From Polaribacter sp. L3A8 (GTDB lineage Bacteria > Bacteroidota > Bacteroidia > Flavobacteriales > Flavobacteriaceae): DNA of 64,000 nucleotides. The first letter of the stretch is position 1. Each line of letters opens with the position of its first letter. The stretch spans positions 3,268,501-3,332,500 of the forward strand of contig NZ_CP047026.1 in the NCBI RefSeq assembly GCF_009796785.1, given 5' to 3'. Both the position numbers and the translations under genes were made by a program. Shown piece by piece: positions 30,519-34,749 of this stretch. The notes below the pieces were generated by a model. It was not told the DNA's origin. It searched no databases and saw nothing but the letters and a program-made list of their open reading frames with translations.

Positions 30519-32390
30519 CTAATCTTCTAATTTCATAGAAAGCTCTAACCAGCGCTCTTCTTTTTGTTCTAGATTAGCAATTGTTTCTTGTAATTCTTCA
30601 GATTTTTTAGCAATATCATCAGGTGCAATTTCTACATTTAAAAATTCTGCCTCTATAGTTGCTTTTCTTCTTTGAAGTCTTTCAATATCTCCTTCTAAAG
30701 CACCAAACTCTCTTTTTTCATCAAAAGTTAAGGTGTTTTTATTTGATTTTTTTACCTCTTTTTTCTCTTCCTTTTTTCCTATAGGTTTTGCAACAACTTC
30801 TGTTAAAGCAGAACCATCATCGTAAGCTCTAAAATCTGAATAATTTCCTGGAAAATTCTCTACAACACCTTCGCCTCTAAAAACAAATAATGCGTCTACA
30901 ATTTTATCCATAAAATACCTATCGTGAGAAACAACCAATAAGTTTCCCGGAAAATCTAATAAGAAACTTTCTAATACATTTAATGTTACAACATCTAAAT
31001 CGTTTGTTGGCTCATCTAAAATTAAAAAGTTAGGATTCTGAATTAAAACAGCACATAAATACAAACGTTTTTGTTCTCCTCCAGATAATCTTTCTACAAA
31101 ATCATACTGTTTCTTTTTATCGAATAAAAAACGCTCTAATAACTGAGATGCAGAAATTTTTCTTCCTTTAGTTAAAGGGATAAATTCTCCAAATTCTTTA
31201 ACAACATCAATTACTTTCTGTCCTTCTTTTATATCAATTCCGGCTTGTGTGTAGTAACCGTATTTTACCGTTTCTCCTAAAATAACTTTACCAGAATCTA
31301 ACTCTGCTGTTTCTGTAATAATATTTAAGAAAGAAGATTTACCTGTTCCGTTTTTACCAATAATACCAATACGTTCTCCTCGTTTAAAAACGTAATCGAA
31401 ATTGTCTAATATTTTTTTCTCACCAAAAGATTTAGATACTTTATGAAGTTCAAGAATTTTACTTCCTAAACGTTCCATATTTATTTCTAATTGAACCTGA
31501 TGATCTTGTCTACGTTGATGTGCTTTTTCTTTAATTTGATAAAAATCATCTGTTCTAGATTTAGACTTGGTAGTTCTTGCCTTTGGCTGCTTACGCATCC
31601 ATTCTAATTCTTTTTTAAACAGACTTTTAGCTTTCCCCAAATTGGTTGCTTCTAAAGCTAAACGTTCTTCTTTATTTTGTAAATAGTAAGAGTAATTCCC
31701 TTTGTATTTATATATTTTACCTTCATCTAACTCTAAGATTTCGTTACAAACACGTTCTAAGAAATAACGATCATGGGTAACCATAAATAAGGTAATCTTT
31801 TCTTTTGCAAAGAAAGCCTCTAACCATTCTATCATTTCTAAATCTAAATGATTTGTAGGTTCATCTAAAATTAATAAATCTGGTTTGTTAATTAAAACAA
31901 TGGCTAAAGACAGCCGTTTTCTTTGTCCACCAGAAAGTGCACCAACTTTTAAAGTTAGGTCGTCTAGTTTTAATTTTGATAAAATTTGTCTGTATTGCGT
32001 TTCAAAATCCCATGCATTGTATTGTTCCATTTGCTCAAAAGCTGTTTGGTACGCATCGGTATCATCTAAATTTAATAAAGCTTTTTCATATTGATTAACA
32101 ATAGAAAGAATTTTATTATCGGTTGCAAAAATGGTTTCTTCTATCGTTAAATCAGGATTAATGTCATCCTTTTGGGCTAAGTAAGCAATAGAAATACCTT
32201 TTCTGCTTACTACTTGTCCGGAGTCTGGTACATCTAAACCAGCTATAATGTTTAAGATAGATGTTTTACCACTACCATTTTTAGCTACAAAGGCAACTTT
32301 TTGGTCTTTACTAATTCCAAAAGAGATGTCTTCAAATAATACGCGTTCTCCATAAGATTTAGAGATATTTTCAACAGATAAATAATTCAC
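30519..32390 (-). CDS. ABC-F family ATPase (Uup-like)
   Basis: Soluble twin-ATPase protein without membrane segments, 623 residues from the GTG chosen here. First domain: Walker A AKNGSGKTS, signature LSGGQRKRL, Walker B LLILDEPTNHLD. An arm linker rich in basic residues follows. Second domain: GKNGTGKSS, LSGGEQKRL, FLILDEPTNDLD. The last 65 residues form a coiled coil (EGDIERLQRRKATIEAEFL, LEQKEERWLEL) as in Uup. The GTG at 32390 gives the normal start MNYLSVENISKSYG; the longer frame to 32456 would run through a terminator hairpin and is rejected. ABC-F proteins act on the ribosome; Uup also affects transposon excision. Confidence 0.93.
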   Translation of the reverse strand: MNYLSVENISKSYGERVLFEDISFGISKDQKVAFVAKNGSGKTSILNIIAGLDVPDSGQVVSRKGISIAYLAQKDDINPDLTIEETIFATDNKILSIVNQYEKALLNLDDTDAYQTAFEQMEQYNAWDFETQYRQILSKLKLDDLTLKVGALSGGQRKRLSLAIVLINKPDLLILDEPTNHLDLEMIEWLEAFFAKEKITLFMVTHDRYFLERVCNEILELDEGKIYKYKGNYSYYLQNKEERLALEATNLGKAKSLFKKELEWMRKQPKARTTKSKSRTDDFYQIKEKAHQRRQDHQVQLEINMERLGSKILELHKVSKSFGEKKILDNFDYVFKRGERIGIIGKNGTGKSSFLNIITETAELDSGKVILGETVKYGYYTQAGIDIKEGQKVIDVVKEFGEFIPLTKGRKISASQLLERFLFDKKKQYDFVERLSGGEQKRLYLCAVLIQNPNFLILDEPTNDLDVVTLNVLESFLLDFPGNLLVVSHDRYFMDKIVDALFVFRGEGVVENFPGNYSDFRAYDDGSALTEVVAKPIGKKEEKKEVKKSNKNTLTFDEKREFGALEGDIERLQRRKATIEAEFLNVEIAPDDIAKKSEELQETIANLEQKEERWLELSMKLED

Positions 32391-32420
32391 AGAGATAAAT
32401 TTGTTTTTTGCAAAGAAACA

Positions 32421-32448
32421 AAAAACCCAAGCGTTAACTTGGGTTTTT
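32421..32448 (-). terminator. Hairpin terminator upstream of the ABC-F gene
   Basis: Arms AAAAACCCAAG and CTTGGGTTTTT, 11 bp stem with a 6-base loop, followed on the minus strand by T residues. It would end the short transcript from the promoter at 32514-32544, just before the ABC-F start. Confidence 0.75.
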
Positions 32449-32513
32449 GATATCATTTAATTTTTTTGGGGGAATTTTTGGGGGAAATAAATTAAATGTT
32501 TACTAATATGAAG

Positions 32514-32544
32514 TAAATATATGGTAAAAAATAGTACTTGTCAA
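32514..32544 (-). promoter_or_regulatory. Minus-strand promoter A
   Basis: TTGACA at 32544-32539 and TATATTTA at 32521-32514, with 20 bp between TTG and the -7 box. The three operator boxes lie directly upstream. The predicted transcript is short (about 90 nt) and ends at the hairpin 32448-32421. It contains two copies of TTCCCCC separated by AAAAA. Confidence 0.6.
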
Positions 32545-32608
32545 TCACTGAAAACAGTGAAATTTTCTTCTCCCTGAAATTGGTGAGAAGACTCCCTGAA
32601 AATGGTGA
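32545..32608 (-). promoter_or_regulatory. Triple operator-like cluster A
   Basis: Three 16-bp boxes at 32545-32560 (TCACTGAAAACAGTGA, a palindrome with arms TCACTG/CAGTGA), 32571-32586 (TCCCTGAAATTGGTGA) and 32593-32608 (TCCCTGAAAATGGTGA). Gaps are 10 and 6 bp, identical in all three clusters. The perfect palindrome abuts the TTGACA of promoter A. Confidence 0.7.
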
Positions 32609-32616
32609 TACAAAGA

Positions 32617-32648
32617 AAAAAACCCTCAAGATATACTTAAGGGTTTTA
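32617..32648 (-). terminator. Hairpin terminator in repeat unit A
   Basis: AAACCCTCAAG pairs with CTTAAGGGTTT (one mismatch), followed on the minus strand by a run of seven T. It lies 29 bp past the stop of the decayed sorting-tail reading frame. Confidence 0.8.
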
Positions 32649-32676
32649 GTAGTGTTGGTTAGTTGATTTTTACTGT

Positions 32677-32799
32677 TTAGTTAATTTTGTTGGTAAACGT
32701 TTTTTCTTTATCTCTTACTGTTGTTAAATAAATCTCTTTTTTCAAAGTATTTATATCTACAGTGTTATTTTTAAAGATATTACTTAAGCCAATAAACTC
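32677..32799 (-). pseudogene. Decayed T9SS sorting-domain tail, copy 1
   Basis: On the minus strand the frame reads EFIGLSNIFKNNTVDINT then LKKEIYLTTVRDKEKTF and ends in a stop at 32677. The pattern VDINTLKK-x-IYL-x-x-V-x-DKE is that of the last strands of type A T9SS C-terminal domains. There is no start codon between promoter B and this frame, and an in-frame stop lies upstream, so it is a remnant of the 3' end of a secreted-protein gene. Confidence 0.65.
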
Positions 32800-32815
32800 T
32801 TAAACAATAATGATG

Positions 32816-32846
32816 TAAATATATAATGAAAAAAGGTGCTTGTCAA
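32816..32846 (-). promoter_or_regulatory. Minus-strand promoter B
   Basis: TTGACA at 32846-32841 and TATATTTA at 32823-32816, spacing 20 bp between TTG and the -7 box. The predicted transcript runs from about 32808 through sorting-tail copy 1 to the hairpin in unit A (about 200 nt). Confidence 0.6.
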
Positions 32847-32910
32847 TCACTGAAAACAGTGAAATCTTCTTCTCCCTGAAAATGGTGAGAAGACTCCCTG
32901 AAAATGGTGA
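32847..32910 (-). promoter_or_regulatory. Triple operator-like cluster B
   Basis: Boxes at 32847-32862 (TCACTGAAAACAGTGA), 32873-32888 and 32895-32910 (both TCCCTGAAAATGGTGA), with gaps of 10 and 6 bp. The palindrome abuts the TTGACA of promoter B. Confidence 0.7.
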
Positions 32911-32918
32911 TACAAAAA

Positions 32919-32944
32919 AAACCCTTAAGTTTTACTTAAGGGTC
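32919..32944 (-). terminator. Hairpin terminator in repeat unit B
   Basis: ACCCTTAAG pairs with CTTAAGGGT around TTTTA, followed on the minus strand by eight T residues. Confidence 0.82.
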
Positions 32945-32978
32945 TTAGTAGTTAGGTTAGTTGATTTTTACTGTTTAG

Positions 32979-33098
32979 TTAATTTTTTTGGTAAAAGTTG
33001 TCTTTATTTGTTACTGTAGTCAAATAAAATTCTTTTTTCAAAGTATTTAGATCTACAGTATTATTTTTAAAGGTATCTAACGTTATTACTTAATCCAA
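32979..33098 (-). pseudogene. Decayed T9SS sorting-domain tail, copy 2
   Basis: The minus-strand frame reads FKNNTVDLNTLKKEFYLTTV and then TNKDNFYQKN before the stop at 32979. It is homologous to copy 1 but differs by indels, ending in another frame. The upstream part (EFIGLSNNV) is in a different frame, so it cannot be an intact gene. Confidence 0.6.
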
Positions 33099-33121
33099 TA
33101 AATTCTAATACAATAATGATG

Positions 33122-33152
33122 TAAATATATAATGAAAAAAGGTGCTTGTCAA
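33122..33152 (-). promoter_or_regulatory. Minus-strand promoter C
   Basis: TTGACA at 33152-33147 and TATATTTA at 33129-33122 with 20 bp between TTG and the -7 box. It would transcribe sorting-tail copy 2 and stop at the hairpin in unit B. Confidence 0.6.
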
Positions 33153-33216
33153 TCACTGAAAACAGTGAAATTTTTATCTCCCTGAAAACAGTGAGGATAC
33201 TCCCTAAAAATGGTGA
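33153..33216 (-). promoter_or_regulatory. Triple operator-like cluster C
   Basis: Boxes at 33153-33168 (TCACTGAAAACAGTGA), 33179-33194 (TCCCTGAAAACAGTGA) and 33201-33216 (TCCCTAAAAATGGTGA), again with gaps of 10 and 6 bp. Sequence has drifted in the outer boxes while spacing has not. Confidence 0.7.
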
Positions 33217-33251
33217 TACAAATCAAAAAATCACTAACTATAGCTGAAATC

Positions 33252-33347
33252 TTAATTTTTTTGGTTGTAGATAATTAATTGTTTAATTATTTTTTGAATA
33301 AAAAGTTCTTCTTTATCTTTTGGTTTTATTAAATAGTTCCCTTTATT
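33252..33347 (-). pseudogene. Decayed T9SS sorting-domain tail, copy 3
   Basis: The minus-strand frame KGNYLIKPKDKEELFIQKII reads like a normal sorting-domain end (KGxYLIKxKDKEGxFxxKII). The frame is stopped just upstream, with similar sequence continuing in another frame, so the gene is broken. Confidence 0.6.
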
Positions 33348-33677
33348 TTAAACACTAATGTTTATAGAATTAATAAATTAGTGATGTTATTATATCTAGA
33401 TTAGGATTCGTGTTTTTCTATTTAAACCTTAATTTTAGGTTTTAATATTCGGTATCTTTTTTAAGAGCAGGTAATTTTAGGTTTCTCTAAGAGTGTGGGC
33501 TTTTTGTAAAGATTTATTAGAGGGGATAATAAGTTTTTACTTTTTTAGTAACTTCTTGTTAAAATTTATATTAACGAGAAACAGGTTATTTATACGGGCA
33601 TATAATTTTTAAATATTATAGAAACTAAAATTAGAAATGGTTAATAAAATGGTGTGTCTTTGTTAAATTCAAATTTC
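33348..33677. other. Gap between repeat array and nucleotidyltransferase promoter
   Basis: About 330 bp of AT-rich DNA with frequent stops in all frames. It probably contains more of the decayed secreted-protein gene upstream of copy 3, but I could not recognise any part. I found no further operator box or tRNA. Confidence 0.5.
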
Positions 33678-33705
33678 TTGAATTTCTTAATTAGTGCTAT
33701 ATTGC
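33678..33705 (+). promoter_or_regulatory. Promoter of the nucleotidyltransferase operon
   Basis: TTG at 33678-33680 and TATATTGC at 33698-33705, with 17 bp between. It lies 28 bp before the ATG at 33733 and matches the Bacteroidota promoter pattern with one mismatch. Confidence 0.5.
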
Positions 33706-33732
33706 GTCCATATTTATTGATAAAAGAAAAAC

Positions 33733-34749
33733 ATGAAAATAATAGTACCAATGGCCGGAATGGGGTCTCGTTTAAGACCACATACATTAACAATTCCAAA
33801 ACCTTTAACTGTAATTGCAGGAAAACCAATTGTACAACGTTTGGTAGAAGATATTGCTTCTGTAATAGACGAAGAAATTGAAGAAATTGCATTTGTTATA
33901 GGAACAACAGCCAAAGGATTTCCTACCGATACAGAAGCTCAATTATTAAAGATTGCGGCAGAATTAGGTGCTAAAGGATCTGTTTATGTGCAAGAAGAAG
34001 CTTTAGGAACAGCACATGCAATTTATATGGCCAAAGAATCTTTAAGCGGGCCTTGTGTTGTTGCGTATGCAGATACTTTATTTAAAGCAGATTTTAAATT
34101 AGATGCGAATGCAGATGGCGCAATTTGGGTAAGTAAAGTAGAAAACCCTAGTGCCTTTGGCGTTGTAAAATTACAAGATGGTTTTATCACCGATTTTATA
34201 GAGAAACCAAAAGATTTTGTTTCTGATTTAGCAATTATCGGAATTTATTATTTTAAAAGTGGAGATAAATTATTAGAAGAAATTCAATATTTAATCGATA
34301 ATGATTTAAAGGAGAATAATGAATATCAATTAACCAATGTTTTAGAGTCTTTAAAACAACAGGGAGCTAAATTTATTCCAGGAACGGTAAATGCTTGGAT
34401 GGATTGTGGTAAAAAAGACCCAACAGTAGATACTAATAAACAAGTTTTAGGTTTTGAGCATGAAGCTGGAAATGACTTAGTAGCTAAAGATGTTGTTTTA
34501 GAAAATTCAGAAATTATTCAGCCTTGTTTTATTGGTGAAAATGTGGTGCTTAAAAACACAAAAATAGGGCCTTATGTTTCTATTGGAGCAAATAGTGTGG
34601 TAGAAAATTCTACAATTGTAAATTCTCTTATACAATCTAATGTTGCTATTTCTAACGCAAATTTAAACAATGCAATGATTGGTAATCACGCAAAATATAA
34701 CGGTAAATATACTTCTGTAAGTATTGGAGATTATACCGAATTAACATAA
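33733..34749 (+). CDS. Sugar-phosphate nucleotidyltransferase
   Basis: A 338-residue enzyme activating a sugar-1-phosphate with a nucleoside triphosphate. The N-terminal Rossmann domain begins MKIIVPMAGMGSRLRPHT and TIPKPL, the nucleotidyltransferase signature; EEALGTAHAIYMAKE and VAYADTLF (metal-binding Asp) follow. From about residue 255 there is a left-handed beta-helix (VLENSEIIQPCFIGENVVL, IGPYVSIGANSVVENS). The architecture resembles GlmU/mannose-1-phosphate guanylyltransferases, but it is too short for bifunctional GlmU. It heads an operon of four genes ending at 37738. Confidence 0.9.
   Translation: MKIIVPMAGMGSRLRPHTLTIPKPLTVIAGKPIVQRLVEDIASVIDEEIEEIAFVIGTTAKGFPTDTEAQLLKIAAELGAKGSVYVQEEALGTAHAIYMAKESLSGPCVVAYADTLFKADFKLDANADGAIWVSKVENPSAFGVVKLQDGFITDFIEKPKDFVSDLAIIGIYYFKSGDKLLEEIQYLIDNDLKENNEYQLTNVLESLKQQGAKFIPGTVNAWMDCGKKDPTVDTNKQVLGFEHEAGNDLVAKDVVLENSEIIQPCFIGENVVLKNTKIGPYVSIGANSVVENSTIVNSLIQSNVAISNANLNNAMIGNHAKYNGKYTSVSIGDYTELT

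Follow-up and report, generated by a model that had tools for sequence, protein, structure and literature searches.

Background

Listeria monocytogenes possesses the multicopy small RNA LhrC1-5, which depends on LisRK and carries UCCC motifs in loops and in a single-stranded stretch. These motifs pair with mRNA, and the mode described is pairing with the Shine-Dalgarno (SD) sequence (PMC4132741). For the GacA-RsmX/Y/Z system, a tandem arrangement of rsmX-1 and rsmX-2 has been reported, and P. syringae can have as many as five copies of rsmX (PMC7911923). Among the Bacteroidota, the FopS family of Bacteroides thetaiotaomicron has 14 members, bound by the RRM protein RbpB (PMC11697453). In Flavobacterium psychrophilum, the small RNA Rfp18 was tied to metalloprotease expression; the same report describes flavobacteria as lacking SD sequences and gives TAnnTTTG as the flavobacterial -7 consensus (PMC9723704). 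An earlier note on the DNA analysed here had recognised tandem units of operator, promoter and short transcript upstream of an ABC-F gene and could name no known system built in this way. This was too strong, LhrC1-5 and the tandem rsmX genes being similar in outline.

Structure of the array

The array occupies positions 32414-33216 on the minus strand of the window, the whole 64-kb stretch of Polaribacter DNA that was analysed (source genome G000). It is built of three 64-bp operator clusters, three promoters and three intrinsic terminators in alternating order. A repeat search yielded a 150-nt direct repeat in three copies with spacings of 302 and 306. The operator site is a 16-bp near-palindrome of the type TCACYR-TTTT-CAGKGA. 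Nine sites form three triplets with a spacing of 22 and 26 bp within each, and the last site abuts the TTG of the -33 element. In a search of the window for TCACYRTTTTCAGKGA that allowed up to two mismatches, nine matches with 0-1 mismatch each were obtained, all on the minus strand: triplet A (32545-32608) with sites at 32545-32560, 32571-32586 and 32593-32608, triplet B (32847-32910) with sites at 32847-32862, 32873-32888 and 32895-32910, and triplet C (33153-33216) with sites at 33153-33168, 33179-33194 and 33201-33216. The expectation across the whole window was 0.26, and none of 100 shuffles reached nine matches. The repeat and the sites thus bear out the tandem array with triple operator clusters.

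The promoter search placed promoter A at 32513-32544, promoter B at 32815-32846 and promoter C at 33121-33152 (minus strand). All three are TTGACA-17-TATATT, equal to TTG-20-TATATTTAC, so that the constant 20-bp spacing seen before holds; under the -7 consensus, promoter A reads as a -33 TTG and a -7 TAnnTTT. Promoter-like matches as such were not above shuffles in the window (6 vs 5.4); terminator predictions numbered 7 vs 0.3 in shuffles. With the -7 box at -12 to -5, transcription is predicted to start at ~32509, ~32811 and ~33117 on the minus strand, and the operator sites are by arithmetic centred at ~-43, ~-69 and ~-91. The hairpin terminators expected behind two coding remnants and the leftmost transcript were found, leftward, at 32946-32918, 32647-32619 and 32448-32421.

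The transcripts predicted from these elements are, on the minus strand, T1 (32914-33114, ~200 nt, fold z -3.24, with identity to relatives), T2 (32614-32808, ~195 nt, fold z -3.26, supported by alignments) and the leftmost RNA, sRNA1 (32414-32509, ~90 nt with its terminator, start predicted). sRNA1 ends before a gene for an EttA/Uup-like ABC-F ATPase (30519-32390, minus strand; open reading frame and profile matches), which lies beyond the terminator and is assumed to have its own promoter. A transcript had been attributed to each of three units. The DNA right of ~33220 is the decayed end of a secreted-protein gene (33252-33345, minus strand, ends set by eye), one frame of which reads KGNYLIKPKDKEELFIQKIIKQ; the array therefore holds two tail transcripts and one short RNA. 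Comparison of positions 31500-34500 of the window and of eight further loci with Rfam gave only matches below the gathering scores.

A response regulator with the same operators

The same operator triplet precedes a response regulator (RR) gene at G000:C1:3771014, ~470 kb from the array. The protein combines a receiver and a GerE domain (PF00072 and PF00196, both above cut-offs) and belongs to the NarL/FixJ type (GacA-like). The NCBIfam GacA model was second best with 128.8 bits, below its cut-off of 280, and among the 25 NCBIfam models listed no equivalog cut-off was reached. The operon consists of the RR gene, a gene read by eye as that of a lipoprotein, for which Pfam gave no match, and a gene for a TPR/HisKA_3/HATPase kinase. 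The RR-lipoprotein spacer, taken as the first 150 nt behind the RR gene, contains four or more consecutive C in 28 of 30 genomes, vs 192 of 2554 window stretches; this C-run stretch was seen at L114:9681-9854 and downstream of the RR in L085-L113.

With at most one mismatch, the source genome contained 19 sites vs one for the reversed control pattern. Nine are in the array, two in the RR promoter, two at a second small RNA (sRNA2, locus L118), three in the promoter of a putative lipoprotein gene (L119), and three stand alone (L013, L015, L122), those of L013 and L015 inside long open frames. At three mismatches the search was no better than the control (158+132 vs 140+134). At L122, a pair of near-operator palindromes with a spacing of 26 bp adjoins a small reading frame that is XRE-like by eye, and a promoter was not recognisable at the usual place. 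The triplet geometry of 22 and 26 bp recurs at the RR promoters of relatives; at L169 (G020) the RR promoter shows, by eye, four palindromes instead of three. A triplet (G118, G067) or two sites (G125) also stand before a reading frame with a signal-like start beside a nucleotidyltransferase gene. In G091 and G005 a triplet likewise precedes a reading frame at this place; in G091 this frame encodes an M4 protease. By its sites, the array is one locus of the predicted RR regulon. The gene between the nucleotidyltransferase gene and sRNA1 varies: an M4 metalloprotease in G091, a Sortilin/Vps10-like protein in G125 and others elsewhere (L200, L201, L202, L205, L206, L117). This variable gene bears its own operator, and its slot is emptied in the source window.

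A close RR, defined as a match at E <= 1e-70, was present in 82 of 146 Polaribacter genomes; G019 falls below this cut, yet has an RR-like gene with operator sites (L048). Among 27 genomes that have a close RR, 25 showed an operator at the sRNA1 place (score >=24), G133 and G157 being the exceptions; of three that lack a close RR (G066, G101, G116), none did. Within genomes, RR and sRNA1 operators agreed in 14.08 of 16 positions vs 11.02 +- 0.39 (sd) after permutation, a value reached in 0 of 20000 permutations; the test comprised 25 of the 27 genomes, G133 and G157 having no recognisable sRNA1 operator. The unusual TCCCTGCTGTCAGGGA of G074 was present at both loci. For 18 of 25 genomes no other RR operators matched better than their own; for 7 of 25 those of another genome did. 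The within-genome match did not exceed what the trend with RR similarity would give (15.8 at identity 1), and, taking the permutation test alone, shared descent may also have produced it.

The operator classes extend the comparison. Each of five H-type genomes had 7-11 sites with the H-class operator TCCCTGAATTCAGGGA; G000, G005, G101 and G116 had none. The N-class operator TCACYRTTTTCAGKGA was counted 3-13 times per genome in seven N-type genomes, and once in total in six H-type genomes; eight genomes that have no close RR were free of it. The control pattern gave zero, except three per strand in G041. Residue X of the recognition helix (SxXT[VI]) went with the distal operator class throughout the 71 classified loci apart from two exceptions (69 of 71), the classes having been set after part of the data had been seen and the loci being phylogenetically non-independent. 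The pairs were N-TCAC (24), H-TCCCTG (11), S-TCCCnA (16), K-AGGGTnnACCCT (16) and R-CTACGTA (2). This set was drawn from Polaribacter, Tenacibaculum and others; 109 loci remained after removal of 9 duplicates among 118, and 38 of the 109 were unclassified. Helix residue and operator class co-varied across the RR loci of the Flavobacteriaceae (L084-L113, L123-L130, L207-L286). The joint change of operator letters and recognition-helix residue makes it very probable that the RR binds the operators of the array.

Predicted small RNAs with exposed C-runs

sRNA1 folds into a 10-bp, mostly A/U stem and a loop with two unpaired C5 runs, followed by the terminator. The fold z-score was -4.89, and four relatives gave -4.7 to -6.8. 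A covariance model (R1) matched the same place in relatives. In the R1 search 145 of 146 genomes matched at E <= 0.1, mostly noise, and matches weaker than ~1e-6 were inseparable from noise; for this reason the analysis was confined to the 30 best loci. sRNA1 is kept in at least 21 of the 146 genomes of the genus and is identical in 91 of 92 positions between G000 and G091. Four or more consecutive C occur in 25 of the 30 loci; G016, G066, G101, G116 and G133 lack them. The aligned set is a selection of 21 of the 30 loci (omitted were L073 and L076-L083, four with and five without a C-run of four); in it, a run of at least four C occurred in 21 of 21 and two runs of at least three in 18 of 21, compared with 6% and 3% of composition-matched shuffles. 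The runs were unpaired in the folds of all 21, except for one or two bases in L054, L055 and L061. GGA was absent from 20 of the 21, and the remaining one had a single GGA. The stems of the small RNAs showed almost no compensatory changes; the variation was too small to judge stems by covariation. G005 has a single unit at the locus: secreted-protein gene, terminator, operator triplet, promoter, sRNA1 and ABC-F gene. In G133, operator and C-runs of sRNA1 are lost. In G066, G101 and G116, which have no close RR, terminator and ABC-F leader remain and operator and C-runs are gone.

The second small RNA, sRNA2 (~110 nt), lies in L118 between genes taken by eye as a GH31 glucosidase gene and prfA. 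The sRNA2 model (R2) found it in 23 of 146 Polaribacter genomes, every one of which belongs to the 82 that have a close RR; genomes that had supplied units to the model match by construction. In 11 of the 23 genomes 2-5 copies occur. Operator-bearing units are 224-385 bp apart, each with its own predicted promoter and intrinsic terminator. Among 39 units chosen by the operator triplet, 35 have a first C-run (C>=4) and four do not. Thirty-five units were aligned; left out were unit 3 of L137, unit 4 of L138 (its RNA equals that of unit 2), unit 2 of L144 and unit 1 of L145. The first C-run lies in an internal loop, and 21 of the 35 aligned units have a second in the terminator part. GGA was absent from 33 of the 35, with one GGA in each of the other two. 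Tandem units of operator, promoter, RNA and terminator thus recur in the regulon, and the source window presents a second such locus. Loci L132-L145 contain sRNA2 arrays with up to five units between two genes, the copy number varying by species.

Origin and conservation of the tails

The coding remnants of the earlier note are indeed coding-derived and can be specified: the bodies of T1 and T2 align with the coding end of the T9SS C-terminal sorting domain of the neighbouring gene, as in relatives. This domain was recognised by Pfam and NCBIfam in the parent gene of G091 and G005. G091 has three units as in the source genome and an uninterrupted M4 metalloprotease gene upstream, where the source window retains only the end of the parent gene. 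The search of related genomes proposed in the note gave complete tail units in two other genomes of the 146; with the source genome these are G000 (two units), G091 (two) and G133 (one).

Identity between tails and parent gene was 0.73-0.81, and the two G091 tails are 98-99% alike. T1 was identical in 190 of 200 positions between G000 and G091 and in 176 of 191 between G000 and G133. The neighbouring parent-gene end matched only in 119 of 159 positions between G000 and G091. Four-fold sites were identical in 50 of 61 (RR) and 93 of 142 (ABC-F) positions between G000 and G091, and in 34 of 58 and 106 of 140 between G000 and G133. Other intergenic stretches of G000 and G091 had an identity of 0.88-0.96, and between G091 and G133 the intact parent-gene ends (176/199) resembled the tails (177/195). 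Because intergenic stretches and intact parent-gene ends are similarly conserved, the conservation of the tails is at the level of regulatory or coding DNA and does not exceed it. Operator and promoter had been thought better conserved than the tail; this holds for promoters B and C, but the first tail (174/184 across species) at least equals its operator (60/68).

A C-run of four is absent from T1 and T2. A reading of the tails as short open reading frames was rejected: by eye, the frames differ between the G000 and G091 units, thus a conserved peptide is not present. The G133 tail unit keeps its promoter and an operator in which the interval between sites 2 and 3 is shorter by one base. That it outlasted the operator and C-runs of sRNA1 would favour a function of the tail. 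A relic of gene duplication, one of three options put forward before, describes the probable origin of the tails, yet they do not look merely decaying. T1 and T2 are probably additional small RNAs.

Proposed circuit and alternative explanations

Anatomy, conservation, regulon and helix-operator covariation, as read from the sequence, are as a whole best explained by an array that is the target of a TPR-histidine-kinase/LuxR-type RR system switching three short transcripts, the leftmost of which would be an ancestral small RNA of part of the genus (probability about 0.7). A signal to the kinase would lead to phosphorylated RR, which would bind the three palindromes at each promoter and switch on the three transcripts. 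Activation is preferred, because the operator position next to the -33 element suits an activator; the RR may instead repress. The two unpaired C-runs would be the active part of sRNA1; as the most conserved feature outside the stems they are likely its working surface. They may act by base-pairing to G-runs in target mRNAs, or by sequestering an RNA-binding protein for which C-runs in mRNAs are also binding sites. The RR-lipoprotein spacer offers candidate C-runs, which would suit a factor shared by the small RNAs and that mRNA. The distal promoters would stem from tandem duplication of a segment made up of the final part of a T9SS cargo gene, terminator, operator and promoter, and would now make frame-broken, conserved ~200-nt RNAs, probably further small RNAs.

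Only sRNA1 might matter, the distal units being neutral products of unequal recombination, briefly kept in a small clade. The occurrence of tail units in just 3 of 146 genomes, the lack of C-runs of four and of a kept reading frame, the near identity of the two G091 tails, which suits ongoing exchange, and a G000-G091 tail identity within the intergenic range speak for this. However, T1 is better conserved across species than the parent-gene end (119/159) and the four-fold sites (0.59-0.82), and G133 retained a tail unit with operator and promoter after the loss of the sRNA1 operator. We regard this explanation as possible, but rather doubtful. A more far-reaching proposal takes T1 and T2 as newborn small-RNA genes: the end of a T9SS sorting domain and its terminator would have been duplicated under an RR promoter, the frame lost and the RNA kept by selection, in G133 as replacement of the original small RNA. 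The whole circuit of RR, co-evolving operator code, expandable arrays of C-run small RNAs and secreted protease would then be a Bacteroidota counterpart of Gac/Rsm with C-runs instead of GGA. This proposal is tentative, its chance being somewhat below even.

Antibiotic-inducible ABC-F genes are known to have terminator-based leaders (attenuators), and sRNA1 could be such a leader without being a free RNA. It lies directly upstream of the ABC-F gene with the terminator in between, conserved at that place. Neither a leader peptide nor an anti-terminator was noticed by eye, and G066, G101 and G116 keep terminator and ABC-F leader without operator and C-runs; sRNA1 features and ABC-F leader are therefore separable, and an attenuator is unlikely. 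The decoy sites suggested before would form a titration sink that buffers the RR level, with incidental transcripts. Nine close sites do exceed the number at the RR's own promoter, but all three triplets stand at a constant distance to the TTG, with promoter and terminator, and in the sRNA2 arrays 35 of 39 units, judged by their C-run, carry a similar RNA. Since the triplets keep the same place against the promoter, the decoy is unneeded, and we give it very little credence. Equally improbable is a different regulator that owns the operators and also controls the RR operon. It would be compatible with an RR binding deduced from sequence, but the helix residue follows the operator class in all but two of the 71 classified loci and the class-specific sites go with the RR type. 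A family of small regulatory RNAs, the third option put forward before, is best supported by the conserved structured leftmost RNA, the arrays of the same build in the genus and the conservation of the tails in three species.

Comparison with known systems

Among the literature matches listed, none was a publication on this circuit in Polaribacter or Tenacibaculum. The locus presents a concrete and testable candidate for a two-component/small-RNA circuit in the Flavobacteriaceae, with a tandem copy number that differs between species at two loci. The joint change of operator and RR helix provides a natural series for the DNA-recognition codes of LuxR-type domains, and the tails may illustrate the birth of small RNAs from the 3' ends of protein genes.

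By description, Rfp18 shares the link to a protease, an RR operator preceding the M4 protease gene in G091. FopS resembles the present RNAs as a multicopy family of paralogous small RNAs in Bacteroidota, but its description mentions neither two-component control nor tandem units (PMC11697453). The closest known kinds appear to be LhrC1-5 under LisRK and GacA-RsmXYZ. With LhrC1-5 the array would share several small-RNA copies, each under a promoter governed by the same two-component regulator, here as predicted from sequence. Unpaired C-rich motifs (C>=4 in 25 of 30 sRNA1 loci and 35 of 39 sRNA2 units) are a likeness in motif only; as flavobacteria are described without SD sequences, SD pairing in the manner of LhrC is not obvious here. 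The array differs from LhrC by its occurrence in Bacteroidota and by a LuxR/NarL-type RR with a triple palindrome. GacA-Rsm has in common with it the same broad RR family, an upstream activating site and duplicated ~110-nt small RNAs with repeated exposed motifs, whereas in Polaribacter the motif is a C-run, not GGA, and the operator consists of three 16-bp palindromes.
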